From: a virus
Direction: 5' to 3' (one strand)
Virus record (IMG/VR): IMGVR_UViG_3300027833_000113
Location: 1-38,254 of that record
DNA length: 38,254 bases
In this document: positions 1-18,093 of the stretch, one piece after another
Position numbering within the stretch: the stretch's first letter is position 1
Layout: the number at the start of each line of letters is the position of its first letter
The notes under the pieces: model-generated
Databases searched by the model: none
What the model was told of the DNA's origin: nothing
What the model saw: only the letters and a program-made list of their open reading frames with translations
Made by a program: the position numbers and the translations under genes

Positions 1-18
1 ACACAGAAAGGCAGAAAA

Positions 19-387
19 ATGTTAAAACTGATCGCAACATACATCGTAGCACTGACGCTAGTAAGCGCGACGGTGACAAACGCTCAAACAAGCAATATAC
101 AAGATCACTCACAAGAGAGTGAGCTCTCTATCTTTAATGATGAAGAAAAATCAAGACAAACAACTGAAGAAGAGTGCTACGGCATCGCAAAAGTTCTGGA
201 AACACTCGGAGATGTGCGAGATAACGGTCTAACGATCCGTGAAGCGCATGAAGTGCTCATGACAACGACAGACGATGAAGAAATAGTAATCTCAATGCTC
301 TATATCGCATATGTTGTCGGCGAAGGCAAGACGCCTCAGCAAATTGCAAGCGATTTCATAGACGAATGCGTAGGCGTTCAAGTTTAA
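19..387 (+). CDS. Small exported protein, unknown function
   Basis: I do not recognise a family with certainty. The 122-residue product begins with a clear Sec signal peptide: Lys3, a hydrophobic core over about residues 4-18, and a cleavage site near VTNA-QTS (about residue 22). The mature part is acidic, with two cysteines (about 53 and 118) that could form a disulfide, and a helical C-terminal half rather like small periplasmic helical proteins. The start has a purine-rich ribosome site (AGAAAGG) about nine bases upstream. A palindrome of the same family as the intergenic ones (106-121) lies inside the gene and encodes residues around DHSQESELS. It is the first gene of the leftward early cluster. 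Export suggests a role at the envelope, such as superinfection exclusion, but that is a guess. Confidence 0.6.
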   Translation: MLKLIATYIVALTLVSATVTNAQTSNIQDHSQESELSIFNDEEKSRQTTEEECYGIAKVLETLGDVRDNGLTIREAHEVLMTTTDDEEIVISMLYIAYVVGEGKTPQQIASDFIDECVGVQV

Positions 388-396
388 CACCGCTCT

Positions 397-421
397 AACG
401 CCCGCTCTTGCGAGCGTGCGC
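397..421 (+). promoter_or_regulatory. Conserved hairpin element, copy 1 (candidate early promoter)
   Basis: A 25-base sequence occurs identically three times in the window (here, 7637-7661 and 11062-11086), always between genes and upstream of a + strand gene. Its core CCCGCTCTTGCGAGCGTG folds into a 5-bp stem CGCTC/GAGCG with a 4-base loop TTGC, extended after one mismatch by a further CGC/GCG pairing. All copies are followed by a similar AT-rich tract (TTTAAG, ATTAAG, TATAAAG). Copies 1 and 3 also share CGCTCT just upstream. N4 virion RNA polymerase uses small DNA hairpins as promoters, and this phage encodes such an enzyme, so promoter function is plausible. A processing or termination site is the alternative. 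Confidence 0.55.
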
Positions 422-424
422 TTT

Positions 425-545
425 AAGGGAGCTCACTCTCTCTCAAGTGAGTGACCTCTTTACAAGCAATATTTCAAAATATAAGAGATCGCTCGCCTAA
501 GAGCAAACACCCTAAGGGAGCTCGCTCTCAGGCGAGCGACCTCTT
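425..545 (+). repeat. Cluster of palindromic elements with covarying stems
   Basis: The gene-free stretch 422-567 holds three related palindromes. At 432-451 the stem is CTCACT/AGTGAG; at 520-537 it is GCTCGC/GCGAGC; at 491-504 it is GCTC/GAGC in the opposite orientation. Flanks are shared (AAGGGAG on one side, GACCTCTT on the other). The change from CACTC-GAGTG to CGCTC-GAGCG keeps the pairing, which points to selection on the hairpin. Related copies lie at 106-121, 1029-1043, 2249-2311 and 11092-11121. The stem is the same as in the 25-base hairpin element just upstream. Confidence 0.6.
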
Positions 546-567
546 AAACAAAGAAAGATGATAAACA

Positions 568-1053
568 ATGTTGACTTTATATAAACCAAAAGTAATATTC
601 TCAATAGACAATGTGAATGATCTTCACATAAAAGCAAAGTTCTTAAGAATGTACGATACACTGCTCAACATGGGAAAAGTATCTAATAGCATGTCAGAAG
701 GCACTGGTTGCTGGGAAGGCACGTTAGAGCAATGCTTTATGGTAAATGAAGACGTATTCGACAAACACATACGCAAAACAAGGTATCTTGAAAACCAAGA
801 AGCGGTTTTACACGTAGCAGGATCAACAAAACAACCAGCATTCATAGAAATGCTGAAAACAGGCGAACAGAGAAACGCAGGAGTGATGAGACAAATAACA
901 CGCAAAGAAGCGTATGAGCTGAACGCATGGACAAACTTCAATAACAGATACTACGAGATCAAGGCAACGAAAGCACAGCCATTCAGCGAATACGGCTACT
1001 ACGGCGAAAACAACGCTCAAGTAAGAGATCGCTCCCTAAGCGAGCTCCGTTAA
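568..1053 (+). CDS. Hypothetical early protein
   Basis: The 161-residue soluble product is not recognised. It has no signal peptide or membrane segment. The middle is mixed charged helix and the C-terminal part is rich in Tyr/Asn (YGYYGENN). The start at 568 follows AAAGAAAG about nine bases upstream. The last codons (around VRDRSLSELR) are written by a palindromic element (1029-1043) of the same family as the intergenic ones, so the natural C-terminus may once have been slightly different. It lies between the hairpin cluster and a tightly packed row of small genes. Confidence 0.6.
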   Translation: MLTLYKPKVIFSIDNVNDLHIKAKFLRMYDTLLNMGKVSNSMSEGTGCWEGTLEQCFMVNEDVFDKHIRKTRYLENQEAVLHVAGSTKQPAFIEMLKTGEQRNAGVMRQITRKEAYELNAWTNFNNRYYEIKATKAQPFSEYGYYGENNAQVRDRSLSELR

Positions 1054-1070
1054 CACAGAAAGCAGATAAA

Positions 1071-1268
1071 ATGACTTACGATCAAACAAATAAGTTGTTG
1101 ACAACAATAGAAAACCTAACATTGCGCTCAAGAATGCTAGCAAGAACGATGGCAGAAAAACACGTAGATTGGAAAGCAGTCGCAGAACTCGAGGGGCACG
1201 TATTAGATGATAAAAGAACGCTATACGCATTATTTGTCGAAATTGAAAGAAAAGATTCAACAAATTAA
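1071..1268 (+). CDS. Small helical hypothetical protein
   Basis: This gene encodes 65 residues, largely helical and charged (for example LTLRSRMLARTMAEKHVDWKA), with no recognised domain. The start is preceded by AGAAAGCAGATAAA, a weak ribosome site of the type used by its neighbours. It begins 17 bases after the previous gene, and its 3' end overlaps the next gene in another frame by about 60 bases. That is a long overlap even for a phage, so either both are translated or the next gene starts later. Confidence 0.5.
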   Translation: MTYDQTNKLLTTIENLTLRSRMLARTMAEKHVDWKAVAELEGHVLDDKRTLYALFVEIERKDSTN

Positions 1269-1488
1269 AATAAAAGCAGCAAAGCTAAAAACAAAACTGC
1301 AAGAAATCAAAGCAAAACTGCAAGAAATCAAAGCAAAACTGCAAGAAATCAAAGCAAGATTTGTGGAACAAAAACCAAAGCTACAGAAAATAAAGCAATA
1401 CGTCACGCAATCATGGGCAATGATCTACGTAAATATTGCGGTAATGATAATTGCAGGAATATCTACTGTGAAATACTATTGGAACTAA
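1207..1488 (+). CDS. Coiled-coil protein with C-terminal membrane anchor
   Basis: The 93-residue product has a Lys-rich heptad coiled coil (about residues 8-65) followed by one hydrophobic segment near the C-terminus (about 73-89, MIYVNIAVMIIAGIS), so it is probably a tail-anchored membrane protein with a basic cytoplasmic rod. Three perfect heptads KLQEIKA (residues 30-50) arise from a 21-bp tandem repeat. The start at 1207 overlaps the previous gene; no in-frame Met follows before the membrane segment. The topology recalls small phage envelope proteins such as spanin or holin accessory factors, but it lies in the early cluster and not beside the lysozyme, so I assign no function. Confidence 0.5.
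   Translation: MIKERYTHYLSKLKEKIQQIKIKAAKLKTKLQEIKAKLQEIKAKLQEIKARFVEQKPKLQKIKQYVTQSWAMIYVNIAVMIIAGISTVKYYWN
1294..1356 (+). repeat. Three tandem 21-bp repeats (heptad-encoding)
   Basis: The unit AAACTGCAAGAAATCAAAGC plus a final A occurs three times head to tail, in frame, each copy encoding one KLQEIKA heptad. Copies are identical, so the expansion is recent. Loss or gain of one copy would lengthen or shorten the coiled coil by exactly two helical turns. Confidence 0.9.
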
Positions 1489-1514
1489 AGACAAATGCAA
1501 GAAAGGATAACAAG

Positions 1515-1898
1515 ATGCACCACAAAACGTACTCAGAAAGCGTTGAACGCTGCTTTAGCAAGTTCTATTCTCGCGTAAATACAAAGCGCGTAATGCTGCC
1601 GCTACCGTACACAGAAGTTTTAGAACTGTTAGAAGAAGACATTAAAGCAATACTTGCAGAAACATCAGAGCCAGTTGCAGAAGTACAAACCGCGTACGAA
1701 AACGGCTTGCAAGATGGCAACGAAAACTCAGATATCGAATATGGCACAGGCTACGAAGATGGTCAACGTGCAGCGGAAACTGAAGCATACTTAAATGGCT
1801 GGAGAGCGGGTGTGAGTCGCACGCTGCAACGCGTGAACATCAAACCACGTGAACCACGCGAAAAGAATGCGCGCCACACACAGATTAAGACACCATGA
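1515..1898 (+). CDS. Hypothetical protein sharing a 25-residue segment with a later gene
   Basis: I choose ATG 1515 because GAAAGGA lies seven bases upstream; an in-frame ATG at 1413 lies within the previous gene and has no ribosome site. The 127-residue product is not recognised. It has a Tyr/Gly-rich stretch (about 65-100, repeated x-GY-x-D/N-G motifs such as YENGLQDG, GTGYEDGQ, YLNGWRAG) that resembles short glycine-bearing helical repeats. Its C-terminus, RTLQRVNIKP and on to ARHTQIK, is nearly identical to an internal segment of the gene at 4359-4670, where the protein continues further. This copy ends two residues later. Confidence 0.55.
   Translation: MHHKTYSESVERCFSKFYSRVNTKRVMLPLPYTEVLELLEEDIKAILAETSEPVAEVQTAYENGLQDGNENSDIEYGTGYEDGQRAAETEAYLNGWRAGVSRTLQRVNIKPREPREKNARHTQIKTP
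1816..1888 (+). repeat. 73-bp segment shared with 4519-4591, copy 1
   Basis: This segment matches 4519-4591 at 72 of 73 bases (A versus G in the CCACGTGRACC part) and is read in the same frame in two otherwise unlike genes. It encodes the extreme C-terminus here. The match ends abruptly on both sides, as expected for gene conversion or a copied domain fragment. Confidence 0.9.
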
Positions 1899-1916
1899 AG
1901 TAAGGGAACTAAAGAA

Positions 1917-2180
1917 ATGCTACGAATAGTAAGAGAACGAGGAAGCCTTACCGCCGCGCAAGGTACCAAAGACATAATAACTCTAGCAGATCGATTCGGA
2001 GTGTACTCAATAGAACAAGGCGATGGCACAGTGATAGAAGAAAAAGGTGAAAGATTCTATCTAGAACCGACAGATTGGTTTATTTGCAACATGGAGCTAG
2101 ACACATGGCACCACACAACAGACGAAGAGTTTCAAAATGATTATGTAATGGAACTATACCAAGTAGCGTTTAACGACTAA
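1917..2180 (+). CDS. Hypothetical early protein
   Basis: The 87-residue product is not recognised. It is acidic, has no membrane segment, and looks like a compact alpha/beta fold (alternating strands around VYSIEQGDGTVIEEKGERFYL). The start follows AAGGGAACTAAAGAA, with GGGAA about eight bases upstream. It is followed by 150 bases of non-coding repeats. Confidence 0.55.
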   Translation: MLRIVRERGSLTAAQGTKDIITLADRFGVYSIEQGDGTVIEEKGERFYLEPTDWFICNMELDTWHHTTDEEFQNDYVMELYQVAFND

Positions 2181-2205
2181 CGACGAGGTTACACGATGGG
2201 TTTTG

Positions 2206-2311
2206 CCGTTGTTCCTTGAGCCACAATACAACGGACACACACAAAGAAGCTCGCTCTCATAAAGGGAGCTCGCTCTCATAAAGGGAGCGACCTCTTACGA
2301 GCGACCTCTTA
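2206..2311 (+). repeat. Intergenic hairpin and tandem repeats
   Basis: The gene-free stretch 2181-2330 holds several structures. A 7-bp hairpin CCGTTGT/ACAACGG spans 2206-2234. Two tandem copies of a 19-base unit beginning GCTCGCTCTC cover 2249-2286. Two copies of GAGCGACCTCTTA lie at 2285-2297 and 2299-2311. The parts are pieces of the same palindrome family seen at 425-545, here rearranged. The stretch ends just before a small gene, so a regulatory or mRNA-processing role is possible. Confidence 0.6.
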
Positions 2312-2330
2312 AACAAGTGAGTGATCTATA

Positions 2331-2489
2331 ATGAAAACACGAATAAAAACAAGTGGTGGTGATGAGTATGACGCGTTCTCAAAAAGACGCAGAAACTACA
2401 CGTTTCCACGCGGATACATAAAAAAGCTACAAAGAGCGTATAATAAAAGACTACGCAAGAAAACAAAGGTAGAACAATATGAAGATTAG
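2331..2489 (+). CDS. Small basic hypothetical protein
   Basis: The 52-residue product (starts MKTRIKTSGGDEYDAF, ends KVEQYED) is strongly basic, with a run SKRRRNY and many Lys/Arg in its second half, suggesting nucleic-acid binding. The start is preceded by AAGTGAGTGATCTATA, a modest ribosome site. It overlaps the following DUF1127 gene by 11 bases, a common sign of translational coupling here. No family is recognised. Confidence 0.5.
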   Translation: MKTRIKTSGGDEYDAFSKRRRNYTFPRGYIKKLQRAYNKRLRKKTKVEQYED

Positions 2490-2676
2490 CATGCGTGCAG
2501 CAATTGTAGAAGCGTTCAGACGCCACACAAATACGCGTAACACAATAAAAGAGCTGAACAGTCTAACAGATGATGAACTCAACGACATAGGAATAAATAG
2601 AGGTGACATACAAAACATCGCGAGAGGAGTTCTAGACGTGCACAGAGCAGTGCGAGACCATAACGAACAAAAATAA
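2479..2676 (+). CDS. DUF1127-type small protein
   Basis: The 65-residue product contains the hallmark of DUF1127 (YjiS-like) proteins: a short Arg-rich helix followed by ELNSLTDDELNDIGINRGDI (about residues 24-43). These small proteins are abundant in Proteobacteria, especially Alphaproteobacteria, where some act in RNA turnover or stress and phosphate responses. In a phage it could be a host-derived regulator. The start overlaps the previous gene, with GGTAGAA upstream. The gene is in the early cluster just before thyX. Confidence 0.75.
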   Translation: MKISMRAAIVEAFRRHTNTRNTIKELNSLTDDELNDIGINRGDIQNIARGVLDVHRAVRDHNEQK

Positions 2677-2688
2677 AGGATAACCCTT

Positions 2689-3375
2689 ATGGAATCAACA
2701 GTAATAAAATTCCCAAAGCAAATCCAAGTGACATACATTGATCACATGGGCACAGATCTTTCTGTAGTCAACGCAGCACGCGTGAGCTTCGGAAAAACAA
2801 GTAAACTAGAAGAACAACCACACGGTCCAGCACGACTCAAAGAAAACGATTCCAAACTGATAAACTACCTAGCAAAGCACAAACACTTGTCACCATTCGG
2901 CCATTGCTTCGCATCCTTTCACGTAAAAGCACCAGTGTTTGTAGCGCGCCAATTAGTAAAACATAAATACTTACGCTGGAATGAAATAAGCAGAAGATAC
3001 GTGTTTGACGAATCAGAATTCTTTAACACAGAGCACTGGCGCGGCGCATCAGAAGATAAAAAGCAAGGAAGCGAAGGAGTAATAAGCATATCAAAATTCA
3101 GACAAAAGGCGTATAAAACAGCAGTGAACTCATGCAAAGCCGTATACAACCAGCTGCTGAAAGACGGAGTAGCTCCAGAACAAGCTAGAATGATACTACC
3201 ACAATCTGCGATGACGGAATGGTACTGGTCAGGCTCGCTAGACGCGCTGGCAGCAATGTGCAAACTGCGGTGTGCAAGCGACACACAGAAAGAGTCACGA
3301 GAAGCAGCAAATCAAATACACGCTGAAATGGCAAAGCTATACCCAGTGTCATGGAAAGCGTTGATAGAAAGTTAA
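2689..3375 (+). CDS. thyX: Flavin-dependent thymidylate synthase ThyX
   Basis: ThyX converts dUMP to dTMP using FAD, methylene-tetrahydrofolate and NADPH. The 228-residue length is typical. Visible signatures are NAARVSFG (28-35), the HLSPFGH stretch (66-72), and the ThyX motif region at 87-104: RQ87-88, then KHK at 91-93, R96, N98-E99, S101 and R103-Y104. The canonical motif is RHRxxSxNExSxRY, so here RHR is KHK and the first Ser is Arg; the remaining positions agree. The start follows AAAGGATAACCCTT. Its product supplies thymidine nucleotides for phage DNA synthesis, which frees the ThyA-family protein encoded next door for another reaction. Confidence 0.9.
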   Translation: MESTVIKFPKQIQVTYIDHMGTDLSVVNAARVSFGKTSKLEEQPHGPARLKENDSKLINYLAKHKHLSPFGHCFASFHVKAPVFVARQLVKHKYLRWNEISRRYVFDESEFFNTEHWRGASEDKKQGSEGVISISKFRQKAYKTAVNSCKAVYNQLLKDGVAPEQARMILPQSAMTEWYWSGSLDALAAMCKLRCASDTQKESREAANQIHAEMAKLYPVSWKALIES

Positions 3376-3379
3376 TATA

Positions 3380-4024
3380 ATGTATGTAAACAAAGTAAAA
3401 GAGATTCGAAACAAACTAATAAAACTCAAGAAACGTACAAAACCAAAAGAAATGATAGAAATAGTAAATGCATCGTTTATAGCAGACGAGGAAAGCATAT
3501 TCGGTAAAGTAAACGAAGATTACATACAACGCGAATTTAAATGGTACGCGTCACAAAGCCTGAACGTGCACGACATAGAAGGCGTAGTGCCAGATATATG
3601 GGCGCAAGTGTCGGGTGCAGATGGCAGCATCAACTCAAACTACGGATGGTGCCAATTTTCATACGAGAACTGTTTTCAATACGATAGTGCAATCGCAAGT
3701 CTAAGAAAAGACCTAAACAGTAGACAAGGCGCGATGATATTCAACAGACCATCGATGCATATGGACGCGATAGAATGTGGTCGATCAGATTTCATGTGCA
3801 CATACGCACACCAAATGATGTTCAGAGACGGCAAGCTTAACTACCACGTGTACATGCGATCAAACGACGTAGTGTTTGGCTACAACAATGATAAAGCGTG
3901 GGCAGACTACGTGCACGATTTAGCAGCAAAAGACCTTGGAGTAGAAAAAGGCGTAATGTACTGGAACGCAGCAAGCCTTCACGTATACCCACGTCACCAT
4001 CATTTAGTAGTGCAAAAACCATGA
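3380..4024 (+). CDS. ThyA-superfamily enzyme, probable dCMP hydroxymethylase
   Basis: The 214-residue product belongs to the thymidylate synthase/dCMP hydroxymethylase family. I see the catalytic Cys140 in DFMCTYAH, the phosphate-binding R160-S161-x-D163 in YMRSNDVVFGY, and the nucleotide-binding HVYPRH near the C-terminus (201-206). Thymidylate synthases have Asn in the GLPFN motif (N177 in E. coli) to read uracil; here the aligned residue is Asp171 (GYNND). T4 dCMP hydroxymethylase has Asp (D179) at this position, which lets it accept cytosine. With ThyX next door making dTMP, a role in making 5-hydroxymethyl-dCMP is the best reading. No glucosyltransferase is visible. It starts four bases after thyX and overlaps the next small gene by ATGA. 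Confidence 0.75.
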   Translation: MYVNKVKEIRNKLIKLKKRTKPKEMIEIVNASFIADEESIFGKVNEDYIQREFKWYASQSLNVHDIEGVVPDIWAQVSGADGSINSNYGWCQFSYENCFQYDSAIASLRKDLNSRQGAMIFNRPSMHMDAIECGRSDFMCTYAHQMMFRDGKLNYHVYMRSNDVVFGYNNDKAWADYVHDLAAKDLGVEKGVMYWNAASLHVYPRHHHLVVQKP

Positions 4025-4098
4025 TGGCAATGTCTGTGGTAGCACCACCAACAATAGTTCTAATCATATTCATAGTAAACGCAATGAGGACAAAATGA
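4021..4098 (+). CDS. Single-pass membrane microprotein (candidate)
   Basis: A 25-residue reading frame starts in an ATGA overlap with the previous stop codon and ends in an ATGA overlap with the next start. The sequence MMAMSVVAPPTIVLIIFIV followed by NAMRTK is one hydrophobic helix with a positively charged tail. Coupled overlaps at both ends favour real translation, and the frame bridges what would otherwise be a 70-base gap. There is no strong ribosome site of its own. The function is unknown; it may be a small inhibitor or membrane-acting peptide. Confidence 0.4.
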   Translation: MMAMSVVAPPTIVLIIFIVNAMRTK

Positions 4099-4322
4099 AA
4101 CAAGATTACACAAACGAATACACAGACGGATACAAAAACGCAATTGACGAGATCTTAAAACTAACAGCAGGATCAAACGTGTTTTACACACCAGAAACGA
4201 ACGAAGAACTGCAAAAAATGATCAAACAATTCCAAGAGAATGGGACAATGACAGTAATGTTTGCGTTGAATTTTCTATCACAAGAAATTGAAAAACTTAA
4301 GACAGCAATAGATAAAGATTAA
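4095..4322 (+). CDS. Hypothetical early protein
   Basis: The 75-residue acidic, helical product (starts MKQDYTNEYTDGY) is not recognised. Its second half is a likely amphipathic helix (FLSQEIEKLKTAIDKD). A good ribosome site, GAGGA, lies about six bases upstream of ATG 4095. It overlaps the preceding microprotein frame by four bases. Confidence 0.55.
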   Translation: MKQDYTNEYTDGYKNAIDEILKLTAGSNVFYTPETNEELQKMIKQFQENGTMTVMFALNFLSQEIEKLKTAIDKD

Positions 4323-4358
4323 CTACAAGCTATAACAGCAACAAAAGAAAGCAAGAAA

Positions 4359-4670
4359 ATGCATTACAAAATTAAAGCTACGCGCACAGAAGCATACGTG
4401 GGATCAACGAACAACCCATACACAGATGAATATGTGAAAGCGCTCAAAGCGCAAGTGCGTAAAAACAACAAAGCAATGCGCAAAGAAGCACGACGCACAG
4501 GAGTGTTCAACTTCTATGGTCGCACGCTGCAACGCGTGAACATCAAACCACGTGGACCACGCGAAAAGAATGCGCGCCACACACAGATTAAAGATGCACG
4601 TTACTTCGATATATATTTGCACAAAGACACGACAGGTAACTGGCGAATGTACAAAGAACTAAACGGCTAA
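4359..4670 (+). CDS. Hypothetical protein with the shared 25-residue segment
   Basis: The 103-residue basic product is not recognised. Residues about 54-78 (GRTLQRVNIKP through HTQIK) are almost identical to the C-terminus of the product of 1515-1898, but here the protein continues for 25 residues (KDARYFDIYLHKDTTGNW and on). The longer tail suggests this gene carries the complete version of the segment. The start follows GAAAGCAAGAAA. Confidence 0.55.
   Translation: MHYKIKATRTEAYVGSTNNPYTDEYVKALKAQVRKNNKAMRKEARRTGVFNFYGRTLQRVNIKPRGPREKNARHTQIKDARYFDIYLHKDTTGNWRMYKELNG
4519..4591 (+). repeat. 73-bp segment shared with 1816-1888, copy 2
   Basis: This is the second copy of the in-frame shared segment, differing by one base. 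Here it lies inside the gene, with coding sequence on both sides that has no counterpart at the first copy. Confidence 0.9.
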
Positions 4671-4718
4671 ATTGGAATCATGAAATCGAGTGTCAAAACC
4701 AAAACAATGAGGTAGACA

Positions 4719-4877
4719 ATGGAAATCCAATGTAACCCTTTTGACGACTGCACACACTGGATAGGAAAAATGATACCGCTCAAAGACCAAGTTGATGAGG
4801 GTCCAAGTGATCCTCACCACACTACACAGAGCACAATCAAAATAGAAAGGACGAACAATGCTTTGGGAAGATATTAG
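4719..4877 (+). CDS. Small hypothetical protein
   Basis: A 52-residue reading frame (starts MEIQCNPFDDCTHWIGK) has a good ribosome site AATGAGGTAG about seven bases before its ATG. It fills the space between its neighbours and overlaps the next gene by 20 bases. Two Cys and several His near the N-terminus (C5, C11, H13) could bind metal, but no family is recognised. Confidence 0.45.
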   Translation: MEIQCNPFDDCTHWIGKMIPLKDQVDEGPSDPHHTTQSTIKIERTNNALGRY

Positions 4878-5037
4878 CATACAAGAATATGATGCGTGGA
4901 TGTCAGATCTACAATCACAGCTCGAAGACTACGAATCGTGTGATGATGAAGAAGGCGCATACGTCGCAGAATGTGACATAAGAAACCTAGCAAGCGCGTA
5001 CGCGTCACAAATCAAAAGAGAAAGAGCATGTCAATAA
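4858..5037 (+). CDS. Small acidic hypothetical protein
   Basis: A 59-residue product, MLWEDISIQEYDAWMSDLQ and on to IKRERACQ, is strongly acidic in the middle (YESCDDEEGAYVAECD). GAAAGGA lies about six bases upstream of ATG 4858. It overlaps both neighbours slightly (20 and 10 bases), the packing typical of this cluster. The acidic, DNA-mimic-like composition is common among small phage inhibitors, but I cannot assign a role. Confidence 0.5.
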   Translation: MLWEDISIQEYDAWMSDLQSQLEDYESCDDEEGAYVAECDIRNLASAYASQIKRERACQ

Positions 5038-5273
5038 ACTTCTCAAAGACAAATGCGATAACGCACAGAGACAACGCGATAACGCTCACGCAATACGCAG
5101 GAACGAAGTCAATGCGCTTTGAGAAAGGTAAATTGCGCACTGAATCAGAGACACGTTGTCAAGTGACGTCAGGCAGAAGATACATAACGATGTCAAAACA
5201 ACAAGCAGAGCAAGTAGGCTTAAACCTCTTAATGTGGGCAAAAGGAATGCCGACTAAAGAAATAGACGATTAA
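5028..5273 (+). CDS. Hypothetical early protein
   Basis: The 81-residue basic product (starts MSINFSKTNAITHRDN) is not recognised. The alternating polar/hydrophobic middle looks like a small beta sheet followed by a helix (MSKQQAEQVGLNLLMWAKGM). The start overlaps the previous gene by ten bases, with AAAGAGAAAGAG upstream. It is the last gene before the tmRNA. Confidence 0.55.
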   Translation: MSINFSKTNAITHRDNAITLTQYAGTKSMRFEKGKLRTESETRCQVTSGRRYITMSKQQAEQVGLNLLMWAKGMPTKEIDD

Positions 5274-5299
5274 ACAAGAGATTACCGTTTGAGTTCAAT

Positions 5300-5343
5300 C
5301 TAAAACGATCCTGGACCCGGCTGCAATGCCGGCATCTCCACCA
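5300..5343 (+). ncRNA. ssrA: Two-piece tmRNA: acceptor RNA segment
   Basis: The 3' half of the tRNA-like domain comes first, as in permuted tmRNA genes of Alphaproteobacteria. A T-arm hairpin CCGGC/GCCGG with loop TGCAAT is followed by CATCTCC-A-CCA; the CCA end (5341-5343) is encoded. CATCTCC pairs with GGGGATG at 5409-5415 to give a 7-bp acceptor stem with one G-U pair. The 5' boundary is approximate. The 65 bases between the pieces would be cut out during maturation. Confidence 0.85.
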
Positions 5344-5408
5344 TAAGGGCACTATGATCAGCTTAGCACTCGATGCATAGAAACCGCATCCTCTGGTGTC
5401 CTTTTTAT

Positions 5409-5560
5409 GGGGATGAATTAGATTTCGACAGGGCGCGTAGGCAAGAACGAGGTATTCGGTTGAGCACCGTAATCGGCTTAAAAACTATAAGTGCAAACAC
5501 AAACGCACCTATGGCGCTAGCAGCGTAACAACTGCAACCGCCGGGGTTTTACTATCTTTT
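5409..5560 (+). ncRNA. ssrA: Two-piece tmRNA: coding RNA segment
   Basis: tmRNA with SmpB rescues stalled ribosomes and adds a degradation tag. This piece starts with the 5' tRNA-like half, GGGGATGAATTAGATTTCGAC, minus its last base close to the standard tmRNA 5' end. A pseudoknot-like region follows, then AAAACTATAAGT and the resume codon GCA (5493). The open frame 5493-5528 encodes the tag ANTNAPMALAA and a TAA stop; the ALAA end is the classic proteolysis signal. A CTATCTTT/AAAGATAG hairpin at 5552-5582 may close the transcript or be its last stem, so the 3' end is approximate. I see no SmpB gene, so host SmpB is presumably used. Confidence 0.88.
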
Positions 5561-5663
5561 CCTAGCAACAGAATAAAGATAGACATATAACAACAACTAA
5601 GCAAAAACAAGACGAGATACACAAGCAAAAACGTAAACTTATCAGACTTGAGGAGGTTTAATT

Positions 5664-5939
5664 ATGACTACCGTATTTGACACAGTTGAGCTGGTATTAC
5701 CCCAACACTGGCTTGTGGCATTTTTTAATGACGATCTTTCGGCGTATGACGAAGAAGAAATCGAGCAGATAGAGCGTTTTACACGCTACATGCAAGAAAC
5801 TTATGGCACTTCAATTCCATTAAGCTATGAGTTGGAAAGCGATAACTTCACAGCTTGGCATGATGCTAGAGACTTTGGAGTTTTAGCTTGCGAAGTTTAC
5901 ACGGTCACGTTCCCTATAACCAAACAAAAGAAGGCATAA
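5664..5939 (+). CDS. Conserved-looking hypothetical protein
   Basis: The 91-residue acidic product (starts MTTVFDTVELVLPQHWLVAFFN) is not firmly recognised. It resembles small proteins often found on plasmids and in phages of Proteobacteria, with a conserved layout of LPQHW, a DD/EEE patch and a C-terminal strand EVYTVTFP. It has the best ribosome site in the window, GAGGAGGT eight bases before ATG. Its codon use (more T-ending codons) differs from the A-rich early genes to its left. Together with the tmRNA and the next gene it may be an acquired cassette. Confidence 0.6.
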   Translation: MTTVFDTVELVLPQHWLVAFFNDDLSAYDEEEIEQIERFTRYMQETYGTSIPLSYELESDNFTAWHDARDFGVLACEVYTVTFPITKQKKA

Positions 5940-5943
5940 GCTC

Positions 5944-6261
5944 ATGGCTGATTTGATTATGAATGATTATCTACTCAACAAACTTGCAAAGGAATACGCC
6001 AAAGAGATATTCGAGAAAACTCAAGATATTGATGAAGCTCAAGACTTGGCGCATCAATACGCCGATGATAGTGAGTGGGTGATCTACACTAAAAAGGCTC
6101 ACACGCTCTGCCAGAATTGCGACATTGTTGATGGGCAAGAGTTTGTTGATGATTGTCGAGCTAACACGCCAATGACCTACGACGAAATGGCATCAGTGCT
6201 TGCGTATGGTGAGCTGAATAGCCGCATTGTAACGGCGCTTTATAGCTTGATTGACGTTTAA
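5944..6261 (+). CDS. Hypothetical protein, partner of the preceding gene
   Basis: The 105-residue acidic helical product is not recognised. It contains a region IDEAQDLAHQYADDSEWVIY followed by a C-x-x-C pair (CQNC, about 58-61) and another Cys. It starts four bases after the previous stop, so the two are co-translated. The reading frame continues open past the TAA stop for another 58 codons (see the following entry), which suggests the ancestral region held a further in-frame coding sequence. Confidence 0.55.
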   Translation: MADLIMNDYLLNKLAKEYAKEIFEKTQDIDEAQDLAHQYADDSEWVIYTKKAHTLCQNCDIVDGQEFVDDCRANTPMTYDEMASVLAYGELNSRIVTALYSLIDV

Positions 6262-7042: not shown

Positions 7043-7083
7043 ACCCCAGAGATCCTTTAATAGGATGCTCTGGGGTAATTTTT
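7043..7083 (+). terminator. Strong intrinsic terminator ending the early unit
   Basis: A stem ACCCCAGAG/CTCTGGGGT extended by ATCCT/AGGAT around a TTTAA-type loop is followed by AATTTTT. An A-run precedes it, so it could also act on the minus strand, where a transcript arrives from the gene at 7184-7603. It starts four bases after the last early stop codon. Confidence 0.9.
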
Positions 7084-7173
7084 CGCCTAACCGACAAGGC
7101 GCATTTGACTTTCTTTTCGCCTAACCGACAAGGCGCATTTGACTTTCTTTTCGCCTAACCGACAAGGCGCAAA
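7084..7173 (+). repeat. Three tandem copies of a 34-bp hairpin repeat
   Basis: Copies start at 7084, 7118 and 7152; the third is cut short after about 20 bases. Each begins CGCCTAACCGACAAGGCG, a 5-bp stem CGCCT/AGGCG, followed by a T-rich spacer ending TTTCTTTT. The array lies between two converging genes. Stacked weak terminators or protein-binding iterons, for example at an origin, are both possible. It is not a CRISPR, because the units abut without variable spacers. Confidence 0.85.
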
Positions 7174-7183
7174 TTGCATCTGC

Positions 7184-7603: not shown

Positions 7604-7636
7604 GATAGATTCCTATAATGTTTAAGGGAGAGGAAG

Positions 7637-7661
7637 AACGCCCGCTCTTGCGAGCGTGCGC
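7637..7661 (+). promoter_or_regulatory. Conserved hairpin element, copy 2 (candidate promoter)
   Basis: This is an identical copy of the 25-base hairpin element at 397-421 and 11062-11086, here in the 154-base divergent gap between the minus-strand gene and the nucleotide-metabolism unit. It is followed by ATTAAG. Its position and orientation would suit transcription of the + strand genes from 7758 on. Confidence 0.55.
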
Positions 7662-7708
7662 ATTAAGAAGAAAAGTCTAAGGCTACATCTTAGCAAAACC
7701 CAGCCCCC

Positions 7709-7731
7709 GTTCCTCTATAAGGGACGGATAC
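7709..7731 (-). promoter_or_regulatory. T7-type promoter A for the isolated minus-strand gene
   Basis: Read on the minus strand, the core ATCCGTCCCTTATAGAG is followed by GAAC. It agrees with the site at 37446-37468 at 21 of 23 positions, and it resembles phage single-subunit RNAP promoters: the TATAG initiation region follows the same layout as T7 CACTATAGGG. Start of transcription would be the G opposite 7715, about 112 bases before the gene at 7603. Both matching sites on the minus strand stand before minus-strand transcription units, which supports the call. Confidence 0.7.
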
Positions 7732-7757
7732 ATTTTGTATTTCATATGAAAGGAATA

Positions 7758-8057
7758 ATGAATAAAATGCTCGAACAGAAGATAACAGCGATTGACTTCA
7801 TGGAAGAAGCAATTGAGCTGAAAAGAAAGAAGTCTGCCGATTATCAAGGCGGGCAAATATCAGAAGAGCAGTACTTTCCATTTGGTTATGAAAGTTATAT
7901 GCACATGATTATTACAAAAGTAAATCGCATTCGTTCTATCATGGAACGTGACGATAGATCTGATACAAATTTCGAATCAGCGGAAGACAGTGTAATCGAT
8001 CTTGTGAATTATGCTGCTATGATGGGTTCATGGATGAGGAATAACGATGATAAATAA
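7758..8057 (+). CDS. DUF1599-like nucleotide-metabolism-associated protein
   Basis: I choose ATG 7758 because GAAAGGA sits just before it; upstream in-frame codons run back into the non-coding gap. The 99-residue product matches the pattern of DUF1599 (nucleotide modification associated domain 1). It has ELKRKKSADYQGG, then FGYESYMHMIITKVNRI, then SAEDSVIDLVNYAAMM near the C-terminus. These all-helical proteins resemble MazG-type pyrophosphatases and occur in phage nucleotide clusters. It overlaps the MazG-like gene by 11 bases and precedes the ribonucleotide reductase. The exact reaction is unknown. Confidence 0.65.
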   Translation: MNKMLEQKITAIDFMEEAIELKRKKSADYQGGQISEEQYFPFGYESYMHMIITKVNRIRSIMERDDRSDTNFESAEDSVIDLVNYAAMMGSWMRNNDDK

Positions 8058-8457
8058 CATAATCACAGACGTAGAAGACATGCACATAAAGTTCAAGCTG
8101 AGAAATTGGCTTGAATCAAACCCAGATAAACTCAATGAATTGATGAAGCTACGCATGAGAATGCTAACAGAAGAGTTCTCAGAGACGATGGATGCATACC
8201 TCCAAGGTGACCCAGAAGAACTGGTAGACGGCTTGATAGATCTCGTAGTCATCGCTGTAGGCACATTGGAAATGTCTGGAGTCGACGTGAATGAAGCGTG
8301 GACTAAAGTTCACGAAGCAAACATGTCCAAAGAAGTTGGCGTAAAACCAGGACGTCCTAATAAGTTAGGGCTGCCAGATCTAATAAAGCCTGATAACTGG
8401 CGAGCGCCATCACACAGAAACAACCACGGCAATTTGCCTGAAATGCTAAGCAATTAA
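8047..8457 (+). CDS. MazG-like (all-alpha) nucleotide pyrophosphohydrolase
   Basis: The 136-residue product carries the all-alpha NTP-pyrophosphatase signature: EEFSE (about residues 39-43) and ELVDGLIDLVVIAVGT (about 58-73), the ExxE and ExxD pairs that bind magnesium. Then comes WTKVHEANMSK, typical of phage phosphoribosyl-ATP-pyrophosphohydrolase-like proteins. These enzymes cleave (d)NTPs to (d)NMPs plus pyrophosphate. A phage that makes a modified cytosine would profit from dCTP hydrolysis, but the substrate cannot be read from sequence. A GAGG ribosome site lies upstream, and the start overlaps the previous gene by 11 bases. Confidence 0.8.
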   Translation: MINNIITDVEDMHIKFKLRNWLESNPDKLNELMKLRMRMLTEEFSETMDAYLQGDPEELVDGLIDLVVIAVGTLEMSGVDVNEAWTKVHEANMSKEVGVKPGRPNKLGLPDLIKPDNWRAPSHRNNHGNLPEMLSN

Positions 8458-8477
8458 AACACACTAAGGAGATGCTA

Positions 8478-9468
8478 ATGAAAACTAACGTAACCTCTAA
8501 CAACCACCTTGGGACGGACTACCAGCAGTTCATTGCGACCTCACGTTACGCGCGGTGGCTAGACGAAGAAGGCAGACGCGAGACCTGGGCGGAAACAGTT
8601 GATCGTTACATGATTAACGTTATCAAGCCGCACGCCCAAGATAAGAAAACGTATGATAAAATTGAAAACGCTATCTTATCTCTTGAGGTTCTTCCGTCAA
8701 TGCGAGCAATGATGTCCGCAGGAACCGCCTTGTCACGTGATAACACTGCTGGGTTTAACTGCTCTTACTTACCCATCGATGATCCTAAAGCTTTTGATGA
8801 AGCTATGTTCATTCTACTGTGTGGTACGGGAGTGGGGTTCTCCGTGGAGCGTCAATTTGTTACAAAGCTTCCTGAAATCCCAGACGAAATGTTTGAGAGT
8901 GACACAACGGTAATTGTTAAAGACAGCAAAGAAGGTTGGGCGAAAGCACTCCGTCAGGTCATTGCACTACTATACACCGGTGAGAAACCAAAGTGGGATA
9001 TGTCCAAGGTTAGACCCGCTGGTGCTCGATTGAAATCATTTGGTGGTCGCGCCAGCGGTCCAGCACCACTGGTCGATTTATTCACTTTCGTCACACGAGT
9101 GTTTGAAAGCGCTAAAGGCCGCAGACTGTCCTCATTAGAAGTTCACGATATAATGTGTAAGATTGGAGAAGTTGTTGTTGTAGGTGGCGTTAGGCGCTCA
9201 GCTATGATCAGTCTATCTAACTTATCAGATGATCGCATGCGTCACGCTAAGTCTGGTGCTTGGTGGGAAACTAATCCACAACGAGCTCTAGCAAACAACT
9301 CAGTCGCGTACACTGAGAAACCCGACAGCGTATCGTTCATGCGTGAATGGATGGCACTAGTCGAGAGTGGTTCTGGAGAGCGCGGTATATTCAACCGTGA
9401 GGCTTCAAAGAAACAAGCAGCCAAGAATGGGAGGCGTGACGCATCCTATGAATTTGGTACCAATCCGT
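8478..9468 (+). CDS. nrdJ: Class II ribonucleotide reductase, exon 1
   Basis: This exon encodes residues 1-330 and the first base of codon 331 of an adenosylcobalamin-dependent ribonucleotide reductase. ATG 8478 is chosen because AAGGAG lies six bases upstream; ATG 8472 touches the ribosome site. Seen here are AGFNCSYLPI with redox Cys95, CGTGVGFSVER and VVVGGVRRSAM. The exon stops at GGTACCAATCCGT inside the active-site motif NxCxE. Joined to exons 2 and 3 it gives 640 residues with no frame break. The enzyme makes deoxynucleotides from host ribonucleotides; the B12 dependence means the host must supply cobalamin. Confidence 0.93.
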
Positions 9469-9641
9469 AAGCGTTTAATTGTGCGGATTTAAAACTTCTT
9501 CTGATTGACTTGGAAGCTCGTAGCAGAGCGACAGGGCGCAAGGGTAAAGCCAGCGTGAGAGACTAAGCGAAGAGGCGGCCGAAAGGCTGATGCGATAGTC
9601 CAGCGCACAGTGGGTAAGCTACTACATCCCCACAGTGTGAG
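9469..9641 (+). ncRNA. Group I intron 1 (173 nt, no ORF)
   Basis: The intron follows a U (9468) and ends in G (9641). P1 is visible: exon AATCCGT pairs with intron GCGGATT (9484-9490 region) with the expected U-G at the splice site. GAGACTA and ATAGTC form P7, in the setting AGAGACTAAGCG ... GCGATAGTCCAGC seen in small bacterial tRNA-type group I introns. A P9-like GTGGG/CCCAC hairpin precedes the terminal G. It differs in sequence from the two td-like introns nearby, so it was acquired separately. Confidence 0.8.
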
Positions 9642-9676
9642 GCAGTGAAATAATACTTCGACCATACCAATTCTGT
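9642..9676 (+). CDS. nrdJ: Class II ribonucleotide reductase, exon 2 (35-nt microexon)
   Basis: The microexon begins GCAGTGAAATAATAC and ends TTCTGT. With the T from exon 1 it encodes CSEIILRPYQFC (residues 331-342). This is the catalytic heart: Cys331 is the expected thiyl-radical cysteine of the NPCSE motif, Glu333 the catalytic glutamate, and Cys342 the second redox cysteine of the pair with Cys95. Splicing gives NPCSEIILRPYQFCNLSEI, an exact fit to the family. Without this exon the protein would be dead, so both introns must be removed precisely. Confidence 0.92.
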
Positions 9677-10067
9677 TAATAGATAGCAGAAGTAAAACAG
9701 GGTGAATTGCTGGGAAGCCTACGTGGAAACATATGGTAATCAGCAGCCAAGCTAGGGCTGGGAAGCCCCTGAAGGTTCAACGACTAGGACATACATACTA
9801 GAACAGTATATGAAGTCCATACACTCAAGCGAGTGGAAGCGCCCTGCCCCTATTAACTTAGGGTGATGATATAGTCTGATCTGTACGGAAACGTGCAGGA
9901 GAAAGAAGTTATAGAATGAAAATGAATCGTGAAGGCAATGTAATGGTTGTCTCTCACCGTGCAAACATGATGAAAGGTGGTGCCTCTCCAGAGGAGCTGC
10001 TTAAGTTTGCTGATTGGGCTATAACATGCTACCGCTAGTAACTAGCGTCTACTAGTGAACATAAATG
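9677..10067 (+). ncRNA. Group I intron 2 (td-like, 391 nt)
   Basis: P1 pairs exon TTCTGT with intron GCAGAA, again with U-G at the junction. Core elements are GGTAATCAGCAGCC, GGTTCAACGACTA and GATGATATAGTCTGATC, and the intron ends GAACATAAATG before AATCTAAGC. All these closely match the intron in the RNA polymerase gene at 18094-18427 and the known T4 td intron (subgroup IA2) ending. A 40-codon reading frame lies near the 3' end; no homing endonuclease is recognisable. Confidence 0.88.
9916..10038 (+). CDS. Intron-internal mini-ORF (candidate)
   Basis: A 40-codon frame inside intron 2 (starts MKMNREGNVMVVSHRANMM, ends FADWAITCYR) has balanced composition and two close Met starts. The upstream AGGAG at 9897 is about 14 bases away, too far for a strong site. 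It is not a recognisable homing endonuclease (no LAGLIDADG, GIY-YIG or HNH). It could be an unrelated small gene carried in the P9 region, or chance. Confidence 0.3.
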   Translation: MKMNREGNVMVVSHRANMMKGGASPEELLKFADWAITCYR

Positions 10068-10964
10068 AATCTAAGCGAAATCGTAGTACGTGCTACGGAT
10101 ACCGTGGATGATCTTGTCCGCAAGGCTGAGATCGCTGCTATTATTGGTACAATACAAGCAACACAAACTAAGTTCCCTTACCTTCGTAAGATATGGAAGA
10201 CGAACACTGAAGAAGAAAGCCTATTAGGTGTTTCAATGACAGGCATTATGGATAACCCCTTGACTACATTGAAAAACAAAGGGTTAGATAAGATGTTGGA
10301 GCACGTAAGAGATGTGGTAATCAACACCAACGCTAAGTGGGCAAAGCGTCTTGGCATACCGCAAAGCACAGCCTGTTGCGCTGTGAAACCATCTGGAACG
10401 GTATCGCAGCTTGTTGACTCAGCTTCGGGAATACATGCCCGCCACAGCCCTTTCTACATAAGAACAGTGCGTGGAGACATTAAAGATCCACTAACACAGT
10501 TCATGAAAGACCAGGGGATCCCATCAGAACCTTGCGTAATGAAGCCAGATCAAACTGTTGTGTTCAGCTTCCCTATGAAGTCACCAAACAAAGCCGTAGT
10601 CACTGCTGACACTTCAGCAATTGAGCAGCTGCAAATGTGGTTAGCTTACCAGAGACATTGGTGTGAGCATAAGCCTTCGGTTACAATCAACGTCAAGTCA
10701 GACGAGTGGATTGAAGTCGGTGCTTTTGTATACAAACATTTCGATGAGATGTCAGGTGTTTCTTTCTTACCCTACAGCGAACACACGTACCAGCAGGCAC
10801 CTTACCAAGAGTGCACAGAAGAAGAGTACCTTGAAATGTACGCGATAATGCCTGACAGCATTGAATGGGAAAACCTATCACAGTACGAAAGTGAGGACAA
10901 CACTGCAGGAAGTCAAACACTGGCCTGCTCAGGAGATGTCTGTGAGCTAGTAGACATCACTTGA
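10068..10964 (+). CDS. nrdJ: Class II ribonucleotide reductase, exon 3
   Basis: This exon encodes residues 343-640, beginning NLSEIVVRATDT directly after the intron's terminal G; the ATG at 10065 belongs to the intron end and is not a start. Seen are RLGIPQSTACCAVKPSGTVSQ (the KPSGT-type substrate-phosphate loop), ASGIHARH and, at the C-terminus, ACSGDVCEL, whose Cys629 and Cys634 match the CxxxxC swinging redox pair of monomeric class II enzymes. The gene closes the nucleotide-metabolism group and is followed by a long hairpin. Confidence 0.93.
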   Translation, partial: NLSEIVVRATDTVDDLVRKAEIAAIIGTIQATQTKFPYLRKIWKTNTEEESLLGVSMTGIMDNPLTTLKNKGLDKMLEHVRDVVINTNAKWAKRLGIPQSTACCAVKPSGTVSQLVDSASGIHARHSPFYIRTVRGDIKDPLTQFMKDQGIPSEPCVMKPDQTVVFSFPMKSPNKAVVTADTSAIEQLQMWLAYQRHWCEHKPSVTINVKSDEWIEVGAFVYKHFDEMSGVSFLPYSEHTYQQAPYQECTEEEYLEMYAIMPDSIEWENLSQYESEDNTAGSQTLACSGDVCELVDIT

Positions 10965-10974
10965 TTACTCACTG

Positions 10975-11013
10975 ATGGCTCTTAGAAGCCGAGAGATCGC
11001 TTCTGAGAGCCAT
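10975..11013 (+). terminator. Long hairpin after the reductase gene
   Basis: ATGGCTCT pairs with AGAGCCAT and AGAAGC with GCTTCT around a nine-base loop, with one T-G in between. There is no U-run behind it, so it may be a processing or stabilising hairpin rather than a full terminator. It begins 11 bases after the RNR stop codon. Confidence 0.55.
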
Positions 11014-11061
11014 ATCCTATATAATTGGGCTAAGCTACAGTAAAGTGCTTAACGTCGCTCT

Positions 11062-11121
11062 AACGCCCGCTCTTGCGAGCGTGCGCTATAAAGAGGTCAC
11101 TCGCCTAAGAGTGAGCTTCCT
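11062..11121 (+). promoter_or_regulatory. Conserved hairpin element, copy 3, plus a palindrome
   Basis: 11062-11086 is the third identical 25-base hairpin element, again preceded by CGCTCT as at copy 1. Right behind it (11092-11121) lies a palindrome of the covarying family with stem CACTC/GAGTG, flanked by GAGGT and AGCTTCC. The same order, 25-base element then palindrome, is seen at 397-451. The pair stands before the replication genes starting at 11142. Confidence 0.55.
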
Positions 11122-11141
11122 TAAAGTAGAAAGGATTATCA

Positions 11142-11369
11142 ATGAACGATAAGGAGCTGAAGGATCTAGAAGATCGTTACGCGCTGATAGAAACAAGATG
11201 GCGTTCTAAGTTTACCGATAACGAGAAACAACTGAATGCAATAAACAAGATGCGCAACTCACTAGACCGTAGAAAACAATCATCTCTTGACACGTACAGC
11301 GAATCCATGAAGGAACTCGTCGAGTATCTCGAGATGAGTTATGATCACAAAGAATCTGAAAGGAATTAA
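11142..11369 (+). CDS. Small coiled-coil hypothetical protein
   Basis: The 75-residue product is almost entirely charged helix (starts MNDKELKDLEDRYALIETRW) and probably forms a coiled coil. GAAAGGA lies about nine bases upstream of the ATG. It is the first gene after a candidate promoter and is followed one base later by the next gene, so the two are coupled. No family is recognised. Confidence 0.6.
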   Translation: MNDKELKDLEDRYALIETRWRSKFTDNEKQLNAINKMRNSLDRRKQSSLDTYSESMKELVEYLEMSYDHKESERN

Positions 11370-11370
11370 C

Positions 11371-11835
11371 GTGGAAATTACCATTAAAGTAACTGATGAG
11401 TTCATTGAACAACGAGCAGCTAACTCAAAACTGTATAACCAAACTGGTCGAACCGATAGAAAGTTCTGGATGGACTTAGACTGTGAAATAGTCGAGCACA
11501 CATTCATTGCTAATGGTGAGTGGAGTGCTGCTGAAGGTTGGGAAACCGATGCTGTGATCGACGGCAAGAACGTAGATCTAAAGTTCGTTCAAAAGTACTG
11601 GAACATAAGCCCTCGCCGCATCGTGAACATCATTCGGCAACGAAAGATTATCGACGAGTACCACTTTTATGAGTGGGTTGAACGTCCGAAGCGACCACTA
11701 GAACCTGGTGATGAAGTCACTGTGCAATTTGTAGGCGCTATGACATATGACCAAGTTGCAGACAACATCAAAGCCTCGTACAAGCAAGCTGGTGGCCACT
11801 ACGTAGACATACGGTCAGGACTCAGTAATCAATAA
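11371..11835 (+). CDS. Candidate PD-(D/E)XK-type nuclease
   Basis: GTG 11371 is the best start: GAAAGGA lies about eight bases upstream, while an in-frame ATG at 11341 is inside the previous gene. The 154-residue product has a WETDAVIDGKNVDLKF stretch: Asp60, then Asp69-x-Lys71 after a short hairpin, the spacing of PD-(D/E)XK nuclease cores. A Lys/Arg-rich helix follows (WNISPRRIVNIIRQRK). Placed just before DNA polymerase, it could be the Holliday-junction resolvase that T7-like phages carry (gp3), which belongs to this fold. The motif match is suggestive only. Confidence 0.45.
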   Translation: MEITIKVTDEFIEQRAANSKLYNQTGRTDRKFWMDLDCEIVEHTFIANGEWSAAEGWETDAVIDGKNVDLKFVQKYWNISPRRIVNIIRQRKIIDEYHFYEWVERPKRPLEPGDEVTVQFVGAMTYDQVADNIKASYKQAGGHYVDIRSGLSNQ

Positions 11836-11862
11836 TGTAACGCAAACATAGAAAGAAATAAG

Positions 11863-16929: not shown

Positions 16930-18093
16930 TTGAATTTGTATGCAATAAATCAAGTGATCGAGTACCTGAACCGCAAAGTCTCTCGCGTTAATCTAAATAA
17001 CCAGAAGGCAAACAGGGGTGGTGTGCTCGTTAAAACTCACCACGGTTGGGAAGACAAGTTGGAGAAGCTAGTCGCAGTTTCATTCCAGATTATTCAATCC
17101 CAATTCACACGAACATCAAGCGACTATCTTCCAGGTGAAGCAGGACTGACGGCAACATCAATGGTGATAGGTAAAGCGGTCGCAAGACTTATCAGTCGAG
17201 AACCTGTGAAGACAGAGCATCAGCTTACAATTGGTGACCTGTTTATCGAAGGCTTTGTGTACCATGGCTTTGCTGAACTCATTCCACCAACACGGCGTGA
17301 TGAGTCTTATATTCTCAAAGCAACTCCGAAGTGGGAAGAGCTTGCCGATATACCGTTGGAGTTAGTGAAAGAAACTATATTAGGCAGCTTCAAAGAGCCA
17401 CAAGCCGTCACTAAGAACGCTCATAAAATGCATGACTTCTTGTACGATGCCGACGCACCTTACGTGGTAGCGATAGAGAAGCTACAGAATGTACGCTGGA
17501 CGATCAATCATGCGATCATTGATAAGATAGTAGCTCCACCGTCTGAACCTCACGAGAATGATGCTAAAGAACAGAGACGGCGCAGCAAGGTCATCGAGTA
17601 TAAGTTTATAAAGTCAAAGGCAGAAGTCCTCAAAGATTGGGATTCGTTCTATCAGACTTTTGAAGCAGACTACCGTGGACGAATCTATAACACAGAGCCG
17701 TTTTTAAACTATCAAAGTTGTGACATGGCAAAGGGTTTGCTTCTATTTGCAGACGCTAAGCCTATTGACGATGCCGGCCAGTTCTGGTTAGCGGTTCATA
17801 CCGCCGCCTGCTACAACCAACACTACGCTCTTGATGATATTCCTGAGTGGTGTGAGCAAGACTATCGCGCGCACCTCTTAGAAGAGGGCTTGGAAGACAT
17901 CTCGGTAGACAAGATGACACTCAACGATAGAGCGAACTGGACTATGAACCACTGGGACAAGATCCTTCAAGGCGAGCTAGATCTGAGAGCTGAGAAGCCT
18001 TACATGTTCTTAGCGAGCTGCTATGAGTGGAGATTTGTGCAGGAGACAGGGTTAACTCAACTTCCTGTAGCTATCGATGGTTCGAACAACGGT
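16930..18093 (+). CDS. T7-type single-subunit RNA polymerase, exon 1
   Basis: This exon encodes residues 1-388. The start appears to be TTG (16930, or 16936) after AAGGGG; no in-frame ATG is nearby. The T/DxxGR motif is DYRGRIYNTEPF with Arg251. Motif A is VAIDGSNNG with Asp383, cut by the intron right after GGT. Spliced to exon 2 the enzyme has 729 residues, shorter than T7 RNAP (883) mainly at the N-terminus, where promoter recognition and melting functions reside. It probably transcribes late genes from the T7-like promoters at 7709-7731 and 37446-37468. Confidence 0.93.

Follow-up and report, generated by a model that had tools for sequence, protein, structure and literature searches.

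A T4-type dCMP hydroxymethylase gene next to thyX in a fragment of a CRP-7-like podovirus

Why does a phage carry two genes of the thymidylate synthase type side by side? The question is raised by the virus fragment IMGVR_UViG_3300027833_000113 (38,254 bases; this whole stretch is referred to as the window), in which a ThyX gene is followed after 4 bases, on the same strand, by a gene of the superfamily that includes the thymidylate synthase ThyA. The original prediction, made from the sequence alone, was that ThyX can supply dTMP, leaving the second enzyme free to hydroxymethylate dCMP, and that the phage DNA may thus contain 5-hydroxymethylcytosine (hmC) or a derived base. Both ORFs were found at the predicted positions, with matches to PF02511 and PF00303, and matches such as these can hardly be put down to chance. 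The features discussed below are collected in Table 1.

The signature of ThyX is RHR-x7-S. The protein of the window reads KHK-x7-S instead (residues 91-101), a variant shared by 123 of 134 aligned ThyX sequences of a large phage group, the window included. Of the 110 columns with a conservation of 90% or more in 133 relatives, it retains 104, and we assume from its group that it is active. The idea that ThyX is the dTMP source of the phage is reasonable: the neighboring gene is the sole PF00303 match within the 38-kb fragment, and many members of the clade possess ThyX.

Table 1 Coordinates of the discussed features in the window
Feature	Position	Strand	Evidence
ThyX, flavin-dependent thymidylate synthase, 228 aa	2689..3375	+	PF02511 E 1.1e-45; PDB 6j61 E 1.1e-36; KHK-x7-S signature variant
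T4-type dCMP hydroxymethylase, 214 aa	3380..4024	+	PDB 1b49 E 9.8e-59; residues; predicted model
NMAD1 (nucleotide-modification-associated domain 1, DUF1599)	7656..8057	+	PF07659 E 7e-06; phrog_18404
MazG-like NTP pyrophosphohydrolase	8047..8457	+	PF01503 E 5.7e-11; phrog_671 E 3.1e-25
Class II (B12) ribonucleotide reductase (RNR), two ORFs	8472..10964 (8472-9470, 10065-10964)	+	phrog_367, both halves; PF21995, first half
Candidate PD-(D/E)XK nuclease	11341..11835	+	E52...D70...D79-x-K81

Structure and active site of the second enzyme

By its family labels, the product of the 3380-4024 ORF would be taken for a thymidylate synthase: it matched the PF00303 superfamily (E 4.8e-15) and the PHROG named "thymidylate synthase" (phrog_160, E 1.9e-44). 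In comparisons with solved structures, the T4 dCMP hydroxymethylase was a much closer match than any thymidylate synthase, both for the protein itself (E 9.8e-59 for 1b49 vs 1.6e-07 for the best synthase) and for a profile of 48 relatives (3e-103 vs 4.4e-16). The AlphaFold2 model built from the alignment of 48 relatives (mean pLDDT 95.4) was superposed on 1b49 over all 214 residues with a Z score of 30.6 and an rmsd of 1.3 A; the lower matches included Mtb ThyA (Z 19.4), MilA (18.8) and the dCMP hydroxylase AfhB (18.6), i.e., among the branches of the superfamily, the model fits that of the T4 enzyme best.

The original prediction had singled out two residues, the catalytic Cys140 and Asp171, the latter in place of the Asn with which thymidylate synthase reads uracil. 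Both assignments hold in the alignment, in which T6 gp42 stood in for the T4 enzyme (wherever checked, its residues are those stated for T4 in PMC6400193): Cys140 corresponds to the T4 nucleophile Cys148 and Asp171 to the base reader Asp179, with no intervening alignment gap, and the structural alignment likewise places Asp171 at the Asn177 position. In the T4 enzyme, Asp179 is described as serving cytosine selection (PMC6400193). As a mark of a hydroxymethylase, however, this Asp is present but insufficient, since the Asn-to-Asp change alone fails to separate hydroxymethylases from methylases; the residue that does so is Asp137 (T4 Asp145).

According to PMC6400193, the T4 hydroxymethylase differs from the synthase by Asp145 three residues before the Cys, by Ser94 and Tyr96, by Val85 replacing a Trp and by the absence of the sealing C-terminal tail. 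The window enzyme possesses this hydroxymethylation signature (Asp137, Ser86 and Tyr88, equivalent to T4 145, 94 and 96), has Val77 (T4 Val85) at the position of the synthase Trp and is devoid of the synthase C-terminal tail. Ser161 and Arg115 are also present; they are equivalent to T4 Ser169 and Arg123, to which the deoxyribose preference is tied and in place of which MilA has Ala and Lys (PMC5175136). In T4 numbering, the retained determinants are Glu60, Ile81, Trp82, Val85, Ser94, Tyr96, Arg123, Asp145, Cys148, Ser169, Asp171, Phe174, Asp179, His216, Tyr218 and Arg220. The dCMP hydroxymethylase reading is thus backed by sequence, predicted structure and the complete published active-site set, beyond the one Asp.

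Two ligand contacts of the T4 enzyme are replaced in the window, Arg124 by Gln and Arg177 by Asn, and T4 Lys28 has no counterpart; among the best 80 of at least 588 IMG/VR relatives, many of them near-identical, Gln occurs in 32, Asn in 15 and a gap at Lys28 in 34. The search patterns for these 80 spanned T4 positions 94, 96, 145 and 148, so that invariance there is partly by construction, while the invariance of Asp179 is independent of the patterns. The C-terminus of the window enzyme extends 9 residues beyond Arg205 (T4 Arg220). A broken gene was rejected as the explanation of this short end, as the T4 enzyme is also tail-less (PMC6400193) and the 80 relatives have 6-34 residues there.

The same residues and Z scores bear on the other reactions known in the superfamily. 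An ordinary thymidylate synthase, redundant with ThyX, is what the database labels name, but the Asp at the uracil-reading position and the Z score of 30.6 to the hydroxymethylase, against at most 19.4 to synthases, practically rule it out; a CMP hydroxymethylase of the MilA type and a flavin dCMP hydroxylase of the AfhB type (PDB 9iqu) were likewise ruled out by residues and Z scores. A dCMP methylase, which would form 5-methyl-dCMP, as in Xanthomonas phage XP12, and lead to phage DNA with 5-methylcytosine, could account for Asp171, because the Asn-to-Asp change at the base-reading position makes a thymidylate synthase a dCMP methylase (work cited in PMC8670742). Judged by comparison with the T4 enzyme and the synthases, such an enzyme is highly improbable here: T4 Asp145, the D145N mutant of which formed no product (PMC6400193), is kept, the synthase Trp is a Val and the synthase tail is absent.

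The phage, its clade and the soundness of the contig

In what kind of phage does this gene pair reside? The DNA polymerase of the window shares 38.7% identity with its counterpart in Pelagibacter phage Kolga and 35.2% with the one in Roseobacter phage CRP-7, and the genes for polymerase, exonuclease, primase-helicase, T7-like RNA polymerase and large reverse-strand proteins follow the order of CRP-7, described as a 58.1-kb podovirus of RCA roseobacters (PMC6918029). Judged by these genes, the record is a 38-kb piece of a CRP-7-like podovirus, with marine bacteria as its probable hosts, and about one-third of a 58-kb genome may lie outside it. The IMG/VR relatives of ~ 58 kb share this gene order. 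CRP-7 also possesses a class II RNR split in two; a hydroxymethylase was neither annotated nor matched in its genome.

Searches of IMG/VR revealed 56 loci with a related polymerase, 48 of which were counted after eight truncated ones (L137, L141-L144, L146-L148) were left out. A ThyX homolog was present in 36 of the 48 records and a hydroxymethylase in none. Absence from a possibly fragmentary record is weak evidence, and weight was therefore placed on the long records: the five relatives of 57-60 kb possess ThyX and lack hydroxymethylase, MazG and NMAD1. From these counts, ThyX is to be regarded as old in this phage group, and the hydroxymethylase seems to have been acquired by this lineage.

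Is it then possible that the contig joins two phages, the hydroxymethylase coming from a phage other than that of the polymerase and RNA polymerase half? The hydroxymethylase region rests on a single contig, and L093 and L094, which match the right part of the window at 99.3-99.9%, terminate at 7080 and 6919, respectively, in the vicinity of a tandem repeat (3 x 34, positions 7080-7181); moreover, the frequency of A at third codon positions is 0.49 in ThyX and 0.41 in the hydroxymethylase vs ~ 0.26 in the replication genes. Nevertheless, the sequence of L094 continues through the tandem repeat, an element of 55 bases is present both at 384-438 and at 11049-11102, i.e., on either side of the repeat, and the codon style is a mosaic, with ORFs of each style before position 7080 and one of intermediate style (MazG) after it. 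The ThyX of the window is, in addition, of the type common in this clade, and we regard a false join as unlikely. Even in a sound contig, the enzyme could be active with hm-dCMP kept out of DNA for want of a kinase, or the gene could be a recent functionless passenger. The 0/48 count and the fact that no kinase was recognised in the fragment would agree with this, whereas the open frame, the catalytic residues kept at ~ 55% identity to relatives, the location 4 bases past ThyX and the third of the genome that may be missing speak against it, which makes it very unlikely in our judgment.

Several further features of the fragment were observed. The intergenic element mentioned above is dispersed, has a GC-rich core and occurs in three copies (384-438, 7624-7666 and 11049-11102), and a near-perfect direct repeat of 73 bases (1816-1888 and 4519-4591) lies inside two small ORFs. 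The early region (1-6000) displays a strong A-over-T skew of ~ 0.3-0.35 and A-ending codons, more strongly than the regions upstream of the polymerase in L103, L116 and L138. A phage-borne permuted (two-piece) tmRNA of the alphaproteobacterial type, with the tag ANTNAPMALAA, was located at 5251-5619. A group I intron (18093-18426) splits the T7-like RNA polymerase gene, and L094, without exactly that stretch, represents a natural intron-minus allele.

Distribution of the hydroxymethylase

The distribution of the enzyme is patchy. In 50,697 phage records, 1,061 matches to it were found, all below 60% identity, the best matches listed being T4-like phages of Erwinia and Acinetobacter (~ 55.8%). 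A genome-contig scan added 21 matches (40-52%) in contigs of bacterial bins, and peptides of the window hydroxymethylase matched no other IMG/VR contig. In an 88-row tree, the window enzyme falls within a 33-row group (support 100/100) that includes none of the six T4-like rows, its exact sister being uncertain (long end branch, support 90/4). A ThyX gene was present in 4 of the 50 hydroxymethylase records, out of the 80, in which its family was sought, and three of these four contigs (L014, L028 and L035) have their hydroxymethylases in the same 33-row group; used as queries, these three again had T4-like phages as their closest isolates. Among 79 IMG/VR loci picked by ThyX, no hydroxymethylase, MazG or NMAD1 was detected within flanks of up to 4 kb.

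Fold, active site and the missing synthase C-terminal tail are common to the window enzyme and T4 gp42 (~ 50% identity). Both T4 and the window phage have a separate dTMP synthase, which is the ThyA-type td in T4 and ThyX in the window; the window further differs from T4 in that the hydroxymethylase lies beside ThyX and in a small podovirus. The IMG/VR contig L028 (33 kb) likewise carries RNR, ThyX, MazG, a T4-type hydroxymethylase, RNA polymerase, primase-helicase, polymerase and exonuclease, with proteins 25-53% identical to those of the window. It differs in that MazG lies between ThyX and the hydroxymethylase, which are separated by 1.2 kb, and a DUF6378 protein replaces NMAD1. In searches of the open-access literature, we found no report of hydroxymethylcytosine in a roseophage or podovirus or of ThyX together with a hydroxymethylase.

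Neighboring genes and the proposed pathway

The original prediction also took the MazG-like gene as a hint of base modification. The gene is present, ~ 4 kb from the hydroxymethylase, but the hint is weak: MazG may make dUMP, and NMAD1, MazG and ThyX also occur in Pelagibacter phage Kolga, in which a search of 41.8 of the 48.7 kb revealed no hydroxymethylase. In 66 of the 80 hydroxymethylase loci, a MazG homolog is located at most 3.5 kb from the hydroxymethylase, and in 40 of them an NMAD1 homolog at most 1 kb from it; each of the two is present in 3 of the 56 polymerase loci. We retain MazG and NMAD1 only in part as markers of an hmC pathway: these counts and the lack of both genes in the five relatives of 57-60 kb speak for it, Kolga and the NMAD1 comparisons given below against it. 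PF00303 with Asp at 177 and PF01503 are reported to co-occur on MetaGPA contigs with experimentally modified cytosine (PMC8670742), and the window shares both; no scanned ORF of the window was recognised as a carbamoyltransferase, which is described as typical of those contigs.

The NMAD1 and MazG ORFs are adjacent, and phrog_18404 unites both in one family, so that NMAD1 is a possible partner of the MazG-like protein. A comparison of their profiles gave a probability of only 22.5%, too low to show common ancestry, and the NMAD1 profile had no match to solved structures below E 0.2. The window NMAD1 is most similar to those of L095 (60%) and Kolga (43%) and has the short form of the latter; an NPNS-type stretch, present in the remaining NMAD1 rows (which all come from hydroxymethylase loci), is absent from these three. 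For the MazG family profile, the nearest solved structure is DR2231, a MazG-like pyrophosphohydrolase (E 1.4e-09), a match that is no sign of cytosine modification; the window protein is a candidate source of dCMP or dUMP. The class II RNR would supply deoxynucleotides; its split (9470-10065) contains a group I intron (RF00028, 9667-9898, E 2.2e-20), and in CRP-7 the two RNR ORFs are of similar size with an ORF between them and perhaps a related intron (L012 13392-14185).

In the candidate nuclease, the E, D and D-x-K residues are invariant across seven sequences, and its model (pLDDT 87) has a best Z of 7.9 to restriction endonucleases, within the stated noise level of the tool; homologs lie between the MazG and NMAD1 genes beside the hydroxymethylase in L052, L058 and L071. 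In a T-even type pathway, nucleases clear away DNA with unmodified cytosine; for such a function, this ORF is at most a candidate. The ORF at 568-1053 resembles an S-adenosylmethionine lyase (PF23780, E 6.4e-09), has a homolog in Siovirus P12053L and is possibly a second anti-restriction gene.

Which steps of a T4-like pathway are recognisable? Among the 38 ORFs of the fragment scanned against Pfam and PHROGs (some against one library only), no hm-dCMP kinase and no glycosyltransferase or glucosyltransferase was recognised, nor was a dCTPase of the T4 gp56 type; T6 gp56 matches PF08761 and phrog_173, the window MazG PF01503 and phrog_671. In L014, three genes with nearly no Pfam matches (phrog_13881, phrog_7093 and none) follow the hydroxymethylase directly (10623-13673). 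Their homologs occur in 27, 22 and 18 loci (also L013, L033, L040, L052 and others) and are unmatched in the window; this cluster is a candidate for hmC hypermodification.

Taken together, we consider it probable that the second gene encodes a folate-dependent dCMP 5-hydroxymethylase of the T4 gp42 type, the product of which would feed hmC into the phage DNA in a protective role while ThyX makes dTMP. By homology and the predicted model, 5-hydroxymethyl-dCMP is the likely product and hmC a likely constituent of the phage DNA. The computations show the family of the enzyme, the composition of its active site, its adjacency to ThyX and its patchy distribution; its activity, the surrounding steps, hmC in virions and protection are inferred from these. 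Cys140 would attack C6 of dCMP, Asp171 would read and protonate the cytosine ring, and methylene-tetrahydrofolate would donate the one-carbon unit; water activated by Asp137, with Ser86 and Tyr88, would then convert the methylene intermediate to hydroxymethyl-dCMP rather than to a methyl product. The monophosphates would come from a pyrophosphohydrolase, either MazG/NMAD1 of the phage or an enzyme of the host, and dTMP from the neighboring ThyX. A putative kinase would convert hm-dCMP to its triphosphate, from which the phage polymerase would insert 5-hydroxymethylcytosine, a base that may guard against host nucleases.

A wider scenario can be offered only tentatively, and we regard it as rather doubtful: small marine podoviruses of alphaproteobacteria may have repeatedly taken up an hmC pathway of a non-T4 branch and run it with ThyX, which would spare the conversion of tetrahydrofolate to dihydrofolate during dTMP synthesis while the hydroxymethylase turns over methylene-tetrahydrofolate. 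MazG and NMAD1 would act as a dCTP pyrophosphatase pair, and the DNA would contain bare hmC or hmC decorated by means other than the known glycosyltransferases.

Thus, the type of enzyme is known, and what is unusual is the virus and the setting in which it occurs. Large T4-like phages are the best-known case of cytosine hydroxymethylation, and the phage-database label "thymidylate synthase" can hide hydroxymethylases. The separate environmental branch of the enzyme provides a setting for its partner genes, namely MazG, NMAD1, the possible nuclease and the three-gene cluster. If the proposed pathway is true, this small podovirus would demonstrate that even small genomes can achieve wholesale base replacement.
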